Source: Prevotella sp. (GTDB taxonomy: Bacteria; Bacteroidota; Bacteroidia; Bacteroidales; Bacteroidaceae). Taken from it: a stretch of DNA of 32,758 nucleotides. The DNA lies in NCBI GenBank assembly GCA_017557405.1, contig JAFYYV010000014.1, forward strand, positions 1-32,758, given 5' to 3'. A program made the position numbers and the translations under genes. Below are positions 9,747 to 11,611 of this stretch, in pieces (positions within the stretch are counted from its first letter, which is position 1; every line of letters starts with the position of its first letter). The notes beneath the pieces are model-generated. The model ran no database searches, was not told the DNA's origin, and saw nothing but the letters and a program-made list of their open reading frames with translations.

Positions 9747-10376
9747 TTATTTATCGTCATCCTCAAAGAATCTACCCACTGTTCTTTTCTTGCAACAGTA
9801 AACATCCTCGTTGTATCTCATTCGAGCCTTTCGTTCACGAGCGAACATGGCCGCTGTGCCCACTGCGTCCTGTTTGAATTCCAGATGTTCGTCGATACAC
9901 ATGGAATGAGCCATACCCTCCACATCCAGATTGTCGGTGCCAATCAACGTGAACGTCCATTTCTGCTCCTTCAGTTTCTCAATCAGATTGCGTACCATCT
10001 TCAACGTCCACTCTTCCGAGCTGTTCTCAAAGCCGTCGGTAATAATGGTCACCAGCACATTGTCGTCTTTGTCCACCTGCGCGTTGAGTTTGGAAACTGT
10101 TTTGCCAATGGCGTCATACAGAGGAGTAGCTGCACAAGGATTATATGCCTCCCATTTCAAGTCAAGTGCGTCCTTTGCCAAAGCATCGTTGTAATGCCAT
10201 TTCATATGATCGCTGTCAAAGGTGACTAATGTGACATGTTGTTCTGTGTCGGGGAACTTCTCCTGCATCGTTCTCACGGTACTCAAAGTCTCGTTCATAC
10301 CAGAGAAAGCCTGCTTGCGGATAACAGACATCGATCCGCTCTCATCTACGATAATCAAATTAAATACTTTTTTCAT
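9747..10376 (-). CDS. von Willebrand factor A domain protein
   Basis: A 209-residue protein that is essentially one vWA domain. It has no signal peptide or membrane segment, so it is cytoplasmic. The metal-ion-dependent adhesion site is complete: DESGS (Asp11, Ser13, Ser15), Thr84 in ATPLYDA and Asp114 in ITDGFENSS. The C-terminus is basic and then acidic (RFFEDDDK). Stand-alone cytoplasmic vWA proteins typically act in Mg-dependent protein-protein assembly and include the TerY family of stress-response operons. I cannot assign it to TerY on sequence alone. It is transcribed divergently from the sigma/macro fusion gene with 125 bp between the two starts, which suggests common regulation. Confidence 0.85.
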   Translation of the reverse strand: MKKVFNLIIVDESGSMSVIRKQAFSGMNETLSTVRTMQEKFPDTEQHVTLVTFDSDHMKWHYNDALAKDALDLKWEAYNPCAATPLYDAIGKTVSKLNAQVDKDDNVLVTIITDGFENSSEEWTLKMVRNLIEKLKEQKWTFTLIGTDNLDVEGMAHSMCIDEHLEFKQDAVGTAAMFARERKARMRYNEDVYCCKKRTVGRFFEDDDK

Positions 10377-10419
10377 AGTCTTGCATTTTTAAGTGAATAA
10401 TTGTTTTGCTGACCTCTTT

Positions 10420-10440
10420 ATTATCTTTAAAGACGATAAT
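10420..10440. promoter_or_regulatory. Inverted repeat in divergent intergenic region
   Basis: ATTATC (10420-10425) and GATAAT (10435-10440) flank nine A/T-rich bases. It sits between the divergent vWA and sigma/macro genes and could be an operator. The arms are short and A/T-rich, so chance is possible. Confidence 0.3.
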
Positions 10441-10474
10441 GAAAAAAAATTAAGGCAATGAGAAAAATTTTTTT

Positions 10475-10482
10475 TATCTTTG
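10475..10482 (+). promoter_or_regulatory. -7 element for sigma/macro fusion gene
   Basis: TATCTTTG matches TAnnTTTG, 19 bases before the ATG at 10502, giving a very short leader. No good -33 TTG was seen; the upstream stretch is A-rich. Confidence 0.6.
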
Positions 10483-10501
10483 CAATCAAAACCTACTAAC
10501 C

Positions 10502-11611
10502 ATGCTCAGCGACAACGAAATAATAGAAGGATTCCGTAGAGGAGACAGCTACATTTTCAAGCGGTATTTCTATGAATACTGCCAGGTGGCCTATTACATG
10601 TTCGACCAGAAATACGGGCTTAGCAAGAAGGAGAACCTCGATTTTATGTCGTTGGCTCATCAATATGCACTATACTTGATGGAGCATGACTGGGAACCGT
10701 TGGAAGACCGTGCACCCACAGTTTCACTTCGAACATGGATGGTAAACGGTTTCCGTTTTATCGTATTGGATGCTTTGAAATGGTACAAACGCGAATATGG
10801 TTCGTTGACCTACGAGGATTATCTCAAATCGTTCGACACGAGTCAAGACCTTCGATTGAATTTCAACAAACTCATCCTTGAGATTTGCGATTCCATGCCC
10901 CTTGAAAGGAATTCAAGAGAAATCCTCATCATGCTTCTTGTCAACGGATTCAAGACCAAAGAGATAGCGGCACAGATGGGCATCTCATCCGCTGCTGTGT
11001 CACAACGATACAACACCTTGAAGAAAAACTACATCATCCCTTATTTCAAAAAGAATTTCGATATGGACTTCGATATGCCTGAGGTGATGGAACCAGAAGC
11101 CGTTGTGTTCGAAGAGGCCAAATCCATGTCAGATATGTCAATGCCTGCGCCAGATTATTCAGAAATACGGCGTTCCCACCTTCCCAATATCTTTGGAAAG
11201 ATGGCCAAGAAAAGAAAACAAACAAAAGAAATCAATATGGAAAAGAAAAGAACTACGCCAGCATTTATACAAGAGCTGGCTCCAGGAGAGATTTTCGTGT
11301 TTGGCAGCAACCTACGAGGTATGCACGGCGGCGGTGCTGCTTACATTGCCTACCGTAAGTTCGGTGCAGTAATGGGACAAGGAGTGGGATTGCAAGGCCA
11401 AAGCTACGCCATCCCGACCATGCAAGGCGGTGTGGAAACCATCAAACCGTATGTGGATGAGTTCATCGCATTTGCCAAGCAGAACCCAGAACTGACATTC
11501 TTAGTCACAAGAATCGGATGCGGCATTGCTGGCTTCTCCAATAGTGAGATATCCCCACTTTTTGAAGCCGCGCACGATGTTGAAAACATCATTCTTCCCG
11601 AAGGATGGTGA
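10502..11611 (+). CDS. Sigma-70-like/HTH domain fused to macro-like A1S_2505-type domain
   Basis: A 369-residue two-part protein. Residues 1-190 resemble an extracytoplasmic-function-type sigma factor. There is a helical sigma2-like region (GFRRGDSYIFKRYF, then LRTWMVNGFRFIVLDALKW), and a sigma4-like helix-turn-helix at about 140-176 (KTKEIAAQMGISSAAVSQRY). Residues 191-245 are an acidic then basic linker. Residues 246-369 match the small macro-like phage-associated family called A1S_2505: FVFGSNLRGMHGGGAA, GLQGQSYAIPT, VTRIGCGIAGF and a final LPEGW. Such Gly-rich motifs suggest a nucleotide or ADP-ribose pocket, by inference. Met246 could serve as an internal start for the macro-like part alone. 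Function is unknown. It is divergent from the vWA gene. Confidence 0.8.
   Translation: MLSDNEIIEGFRRGDSYIFKRYFYEYCQVAYYMFDQKYGLSKKENLDFMSLAHQYALYLMEHDWEPLEDRAPTVSLRTWMVNGFRFIVLDALKWYKREYGSLTYEDYLKSFDTSQDLRLNFNKLILEICDSMPLERNSREILIMLLVNGFKTKEIAAQMGISSAAVSQRYNTLKKNYIIPYFKKNFDMDFDMPEVMEPEAVVFEEAKSMSDMSMPAPDYSEIRRSHLPNIFGKMAKKRKQTKEINMEKKRTTPAFIQELAPGEIFVFGSNLRGMHGGGAAYIAYRKFGAVMGQGVGLQGQSYAIPTMQGGVETIKPYVDEFIAFAKQNPELTFLVTRIGCGIAGFSNSEISPLFEAAHDVENIILPEGW

Follow-up and report, generated by a model that had tools for sequence, protein, structure and literature searches.

How might a sigma factor be controlled when the controlling domain appears to be part of the same polypeptide? This question is raised by a gene of Prevotella sp. 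(GenBank assembly GCA_017557405.1, contig JAFYYV010000014.1), where, within the window (the whole stretch of DNA analysed, 32,758 nucleotides in length), a single frame joins a sigma-factor-like half to a domain of the A1S_2505 family. Among the readings that we considered, the most likely one, which we hold tentatively, is that of an ECF sigma factor that carries its own regulatory domain; an ADP-ribose derivative or else an ADP-ribosylated protein would gate it, with help from a vWA protein.

Conservation of the fusion gene

10502..11611, + strand: fusion gene consisting of an ECF-type sigma half, a variable linker and an A1S_2505 domain (ATG start, 369 aa plus stop, open frame)

As the initial annotation had described, one uninterrupted frame of 369 aa is open here, and we found the same arrangement in its relatives. 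A comparison with GTDB r220 contigs gave 202 relatives of the sigma half, of which the best 80 were retained, so that the counts are skewed toward close relatives, and these together with six loci from viral contigs make up a set of 86. Both halves lie in a single ORF in 85 of the 86 loci (best 80 of 202 relatives plus six viral-contig loci), and the concern that most homologues would prove to be two genes was thus not borne out. The best 80 of the 202 relatives are mostly rumen Prevotella MAGs, with some isolates among them (Prevotella ruminicola KHT3, Xylanibacter ruminicola Ga6B6, and X. brevis ATCC 19188), and at least two of the six viral-contig loci share isolate neighbourhoods already in the set (L151 with L115, and L153 with L126).

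In the genus, 75 of 150 genomes match one half or the other, and a single stop-free stretch spanning residues 2-367 or more is present in 26 of the 150, own genome included. At the family level, the sigma half is matched (E 1e-20) in 27 of 399 genomes and 8 of 30 genera, all 27 matches lying inside an open frame of 350-484 codons; a motif check of nine of these loci found all nine fused and eight with a vWA motif close by. Across 393 genomes of the order, a sample poor in genomes of the same genus or family, the best match besides the own genome reached only E 2.3e-10 and fell on an open frame as long as that of an ECF. Moreover, when the window is compared with locus L071, the changes at codon positions one, two, and three amount to 34/10/96 in the sigma half (185 codons), 12/4/60 in the C-terminal domain (121 codons), and 24/20/27 in the linker (59 codons). 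Since position three is the most changed in both domains, both appear to be under selection.

The sigma-A1S_2505 fusion is real and not an artefact. That the frame might come from an assembly artefact or from a chance fusion in a single strain is a vanishingly small prospect, to which locus L107 (3359-5027) lends what it can as the sole relative of the 86 with its halves in different frames, be this a frameshift, an assembly error or a true split. Against it stand the 85 fused loci (best 80 of 202 plus six viral), the family survey, in which the sigma half of all 27 matching genomes (out of 399) lies in a frame no shorter than 350 codons, and the selection on both domains seen in the codon changes; on these frames, and on the stop-free frames of the genus survey, a sequencing fusion was rejected. 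While the fusion first reported for this locus therefore stands, its vWA partner, its conserved promoter block, and its split forms had been missed.

In the full-text papers that we searched, neither an ECF-A1S_2505 nor an ECF-macro fusion is described, in agreement with the initial statement that none was known. Where PMC8195603 deals with gene neighbourhoods that include an ECF sigma factor, the fused macro domains belong to another protein, and the arrangement differs from the one here. A known defence system was also considered and rejected, as PADLOC matched P0001 only weakly (E 0.0014 or worse, HTH region) and gave nothing for the vWA protein or for three relatives.

The N-terminal half

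10502..10795, + strand: probable sigma-2 region, divergent, residues 1-98 (hhalign via intermediate ECFs)
10901..11011, + strand: sigma-4 helix-turn-helix, residues 134-170 (Pfam PF08281)

Residues 134-170 of the window protein are recognised by Sigma70_r4_2 (PF08281) at 29.7 bits (cut-off 25.7), as are 56 of 64 fused homologues (Pfam, E 0.01), and so the sigma HMMs do not fail on this half. Pfam Sigma70_r2 was found neither in the window protein nor in any of the 64 fused homologues scanned (E 0.01). TIGR02937 (sigma70-ECF) covers residues 22-175 with an E-value of 2.3e-8, yet its 33.9 bits lie below the cut-off of 42.9; it is found in all 64 members at E 0.001, the cut-off scores being those of the first member alone.

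In profile-profile comparisons with hhalign, a profile of 18 sigma halves (A2) aligned over nearly its full length with one of 13 ECF proteins of the order (A4; 98.5%, E 3.2e-15), two of which were scanned and both carry clear Sigma70_r2 and r4_2, and it matched a divergent Bacteroidales ECF group of eight sequences (A5) at 99.1%. With the sigma-2 part alone, A2-A5 gave 98.5% and A5-A4 gave 96.9%, with 60.8% for A2-A4 directly, as against 0.1-1.4% in the controls (five mismatched pairings and two with reversed sequence). Matches of the A2 profile in the PDB are weak, with FliA mixed among MarR-type regulators and a best E-value of 0.0011. Among the residues that never vary in alignments A1 and A3 are W79 and D47 of the sigma-2 part. 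Of the sigma2/sigma4-like half initially proposed, sigma-4 is thus clear by its Pfam score, whereas sigma-2 is divergent, lacks a Pfam match, and is supported via intermediate profiles only; the missing Pfam match counts against the preferred reading. We conclude that the N-terminal half is an ECF-derived protein with a diverged sigma-2 and a putative role as a sigma factor.

The A1S_2505 domain

11291..11608, + strand: A1S_2505-family domain, residues 264-369 (NF049995, phrog_2072)

The NCBIfam model A1S_2505_Nterm (NF049995) matches residues 264-369 at 147.7 bits against a cut-off of 45 (E 1.3e-43), and phrog_2072 matches the domain at E 2.7e-34. In 64 of 64 homologues, this domain stands behind sigma-4 in the same protein, and the family as a whole is matched in 441 phage records. 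The three C-terminal motifs picked out at the outset are all present, namely FVFGSN (residues 265-270), GLQGQSYAIPT (296-306), and VTRIGCGIAGF (335-345).

The classification of this half as a macro domain was not upheld. An hhalign comparison of A1S_2505 with 18 PF01661 macro sequences returned a probability of 0.2%, a Pfam scan of 13 A1S_2505 members at E 5 named no macro family, and in the PDB profile search, macrodomain 5e3b came second of four hits at E 0.48, aligned mainly over the IGCG motif. Macro homology by sequence was not supported by the PF01661, PDB-profile, and Pfam comparisons, which counts against the preferred reading. These tests are insensitive, given few effective sequences and no secondary structure, and so a distant macro fold would be compatible with the negatives. 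The one locus with a weak PF01661 match (L256) proved unrelated.

The linker and Met246

11048..11236, + strand: fast-evolving linker, residues 183-245 (alignment A1, codon changes)
11237..11239, + strand: Met246 codon (ATG) at the border of the two domains, which may be an internal start or a relic of the fusion (Met conservation; pE2-28 annotation)

A border Met is found in 56 of the 61 parsed sequences, in 47 of them at an identical offset (three of the 64 were unparsed). That Met246 is kept although the linker is the fastest-changing part of the fusion fits an internal start, which might yield the C-terminal domain alone as had been suggested, or a relic of the fusion, and we regard it as a candidate for either. 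Stand-alone A1S_2505 proteins of 124 aa begin at the place equivalent to Met246.

On pE2-28 (NZ_CP091789.1; L266 9727-10101), the public gene table has just the C-terminal 124 aa from the internal Met. Here, a 371-codon fusion frame is open despite the 124-aa CDS in that table, which is known to be incomplete, and this example illustrates that the fusion can be hidden by public annotation. In the window, a -7-like TAnnTTTG box (TATCTTTG) also occurs ahead of Met246 at 11187-11194; as it is present in only one of 56 sequences, an internal promoter near 11187 was rejected and the box taken as chance.

The divergent vWA partner

9747..10376, - strand: divergent partner, vWA-domain protein of 209 aa (Pfam VWA, phrog_7371)

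The neighbouring gene passes the Pfam VWA cut-off (24.4 bits against 23.8) and matches phrog_7371 at E 4.5e-33, and a PDB search with its product gave no match at E 0.01. A vWA relative accompanies the fusion in 81 of the 86 loci (best 80 of 202 plus six viral), which counts in favour of the preferred reading. In the non-overlapping gene set, where a vWA gene is present in 79 loci, it lies upstream of the fusion in 78 of the 79 and on the + strand in none. The fusion and the divergently transcribed vWA gene would form a two-gene module. Counting against the preferred reading, five of the 86 loci (best 80 of 202 plus six viral) have no vWA gene within the stretch at hand; one of them, L135, meets its contig end after only some 300 upstream bases.

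This close association could also mean that the A1S_2505 domain senses no nucleotide and serves as a docking site for the vWA protein, which would then be an anti-sigma factor or chaperone sensing something else. In keeping with such a role, the two occur together in those 81 loci, and A1S_2505 is fused directly to vWA in the congeneric loci L063 and L070. Conversely, A1S_2505 exists without vWA, either standing alone or fused to ADP-ribose enzymes, and four loci lack vWA despite ample upstream sequence. We judge the docking alternative to be quite improbable, and retain as the preferred reading a sigma factor that the A1S_2505 domain would gate with vWA help.

The shared divergent promoter

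10377..10501, no strand: shared divergent promoter region (80 intergenic stretches compared)
10425..10454, + strand: conserved block CTTTAAAGA-N10-AAAAAATTAAG, candidate operator, TTAAG at the -33 position (conserved spacing)
10475..10482, + strand: TATCTTTG, match to the -7 box TAnnTTTG (TAnnTTYG spacing after TKAAG)

In Bacteroidota, the -7 box has the consensus TAnnTTTG. The distance from CTTTAAAGA to AAAAAATTAAG is identical in 70 of the 80 intergenic stretches, and TAnnTTYG follows 18-21 nt past TKAAG in 72 of the 76 stretches where the latter is recognised. The block of the window gave zero chance matches in 100 shuffles, and in the own genome, 10425-10454 is its only copy with 0 mismatches. 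The conserved block would fit autoregulation, and with its fixed spacing it counts for the preferred reading. With the strict pattern, the own genome has one 0-mismatch and three 3-mismatch copies against five in the reversed control, and with a looser pattern, eight matches against two. No wider regulon was found with these patterns; because the block is essentially unique in the own genome, none is visible, and this counts against the preferred reading. Related promoter elements were seen by eye in several divergent loci and not in L044. Upstream of the fusion in L023 and L024, the promoter element appears inverted, and no vWA gene was recognised beside these two fusions.

These features bear on another reading, in which the N-terminal half is no longer a sigma factor and has become a one-component autoregulatory DNA-binding protein. 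Its sigma-4 HTH would bind the palindromic CTTTAAAG block, and the housekeeping polymerase would use the TAnnTTTG box. A housekeeping-type -7 box does adjoin the conserved block, no second copy of the block free of mismatches exists in the own genome, and Sigma70_r2 is found in none of the 64 homologues. Set against this are the TIGR02937 match in 64 of 64 members (E 0.001), running from residue 22 to 175 in the window protein, the link of sigma-2 to ECFs through intermediates with clean controls, and the invariance of sigma-2 residues such as W79 and D47 (A1, A3). On balance, the loss of sigma function seems to us rather unlikely, and a gated sigma factor remains the preferred reading.

Split forms and RyR-domain partners

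In three of 398 genus genomes (G143, G621, and G761; split loci L044, L196, and L197), the sigma gene is separate and its end overlaps a second gene, which encodes a short N-terminal module (LPEELLCAYxxG...), a linker, and the A1S_2505 domain. In a midpoint-rooted concatenated tree, these loci group as a single clade with a support of 1.00. A divergent vWA gene is present in two of three split forms; none was seen in the 14 kb around the split locus of G143, which counts against the preferred reading.

A similar N-terminal module is found in RyR-domain partners beside divergent ECF genes (G117, G730, L047, and L048), and in a profile comparison, the split-form and RyR-partner modules match at 95.8% (E 8e-9); this match and the split arrangement itself count for the preferred reading. 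For zf-HC2, the split partner gave E 0.03 in L196, which is below the cut-off, and nothing in L197 or L044, and comparing the profile of the split-form module with four zf-HC2 stretches gave 0.4%. The position of the split-partner gene fits an anti-sigma factor. We consider the split-form module to be sigma-partner-like and a merely possible anti-sigma factor; that its anti-sigma nature finds so little backing in the zf-HC2 comparisons counts against the preferred reading. In L047, L048, L198, and L199, a divergent Bacteroidales ECF gene is followed by a gene with the N-terminal module and RyR, and three of the four have a C39-like match.

The ADP-ribose context

In hand-picked loci of congeners, A1S_2505 is fused to ADP_ribosyl_GH (L052), DUF1810 (L053 and L059), and PARG_cat_microb (L051), and in L042 a stand-alone A1S_2505 copy adjoins an ARG (ADP-ribosylglycohydrolase) gene. 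Within about 4 kb of the fusion, 10 of the 86 loci have an ARG gene where 0.22 would be expected, and 18 of the 86 have a Nudix gene where 0.78 would be expected (best 80 of 202 plus six viral in both cases). These expectations were derived from genus rates (about 131-133 Nudix matches) with an assumed genome size of 2.9 Mb, and the corresponding Poisson values (5e-14 for ARG and 9e-19 for Nudix) ignore shared ancestry. One or the other is near in 21 of the 86 loci (best 80 of 202 plus six viral), or in 12 of 62 clusters at 90% identity. Their positions vary from upstream to downstream of the fusion, and Pfam bears out both genes in L126 and the ARG gene in L155.

Two results count against the preferred reading. 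Neither gene is near in 65 of the 86 loci (best 80 of 202 plus six viral), and neither is found in the window or on its contig, the matches in the own genome all being on other contigs. The fusions to ADP-ribose enzymes, those to vWA in L063 and L070, and the ARG and Nudix enrichment count for that reading. The context of the module points to ADP-ribose chemistry. A Sir2 relative lies near three of the 86 loci (best 80 of 202 plus six viral; a count that has no background rate) and also on pE2-28. On this Prevotella megaplasmid (L266 6206-7609), Sir2 and C39-family genes lie just past the vWA gene, near a conjugative DNA-transfer gene.

An enzymatic role would draw on much of the same evidence. 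Here, A1S_2505 would remove or process ADP-ribose, and the sigma and vWA parts would target it or feed back on its expression, with no allosteric gating. The fusions to ADP_ribosyl_GH, PARG, and DUF1810, like the ARG and Nudix neighbours, speak for an enzyme no less than for a sensor, and the stand-alone copies, which can adjoin an ARG gene (L042), also agree with an enzymatic role. Yet sensors are typically placed as A1S_2505 is here, fused to a sigma factor and to a sigma-partner-like module, and catalysis by itself would need no fusion. We therefore view a purely enzymatic domain as unlikely, and return to the sensor-gated sigma factor as the preferred reading.

Proposed mechanism

In the preferred reading, the A1S_2505 domain would bind an ADP-ribose derivative or an ADP-ribosylated protein, aided by the vWA protein, and binding would alter its contact with the sigma half, such that sigma is either freed or locked. 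Once active, sigma would act first on the shared promoter (autoregulation) and possibly also on ADP-ribose clean-up genes. A likely trigger would be ADP-ribosylation or the breakdown of NAD+ in the course of a conflict, such as an attack by phages. We infer the ligand, the steps from sigma to gating, and the direction of control, and likewise can only infer that a nucleotide ligand would switch promoter choice, as the initial annotation had proposed. In a more specific version, an ADP-ribose derivative would gate sigma directly, meaning that a polymerase subunit carries the sensor and the vWA protein presents the modified target, the whole serving as an alarm at the level of transcription that signals ADP-ribosylation or the breakdown of NAD+, for example under phage attack; this version we consider possible, though doubtful.

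If true, a single protein would tie transcription initiation directly to ADP-ribose or NAD+ chemistry, dispensing with the membrane anti-sigma factor that is usual, and the conflict that phages and gut or rumen bacteria carry on through ADP-ribose would gain a regulatory arm. The split A1S_2505 forms and the RyR partners would then place the gated sigma factor as one branch within a larger Bacteroidales family of nucleotide sensors coupled to sigma factors. The fusion also offers a way into the A1S_2505 family, with its 441 phage records, because a sigma reporter would make the ligand measurable.

Comparison with known systems

According to section 3.5 of PMC8999054, C-terminal extensions of ECF sigma factors assume an anti-sigma factor role. 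The fusion resembles these proteins in that a C-terminal domain comes after an ECF-type half and may stand in for an anti-sigma factor, and the split loci are a parallel to an origin in which a partner gene became fused on. In contrast, the extension here is A1S_2505, a domain not named in the first part of section 3.5, and the strictly associated partner is a vWA gene.

Section 3.8 of PMC9503650 describes regulators that sense ADP-ribose in company with ARG, Nudix, vWA, and macro genes, and predicts these to be anti-viral systems that counter viral ADP-ribosylation. This parallel and that of the ECF extensions count for the preferred reading. Like these ARG-centred systems, the module has a regulator joined to an ADP-ribose-linked domain as well as a vWA gene, and some of its loci add ARG and Nudix genes. 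The regulators of that section are HTH proteins with a Nudix or WYL domain, whereas here it is a sigma factor with A1S_2505, and ARG, which is the core of the systems described there, is near 10 of the 86 loci (best 80 of 202 plus six viral) and absent from the window. The word 'sigma' does not occur in the text of PMC9503650.

Compared with the Bacteroidales ECF genes and their RyR partners (L047, L048, L198, and L199), the divergent ECF half is related and the partner module is the one that matches the split forms; the differences are an output domain that is RyR (4 of 4 partners scanned) rather than A1S_2505, and genes that are separate. The phage A1S_2505/phrog_2072 proteins belong to the same domain family and differ in that none of the 441 phage records covers 80% of the fusion in one stretch, the 79% match of H1 being cut by its own contig end. 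In the N4-like Escherichia phage PhAPEC5 (L259 595-975), the A1S_2505 gene lies in the early region, one gene from RNAP1.
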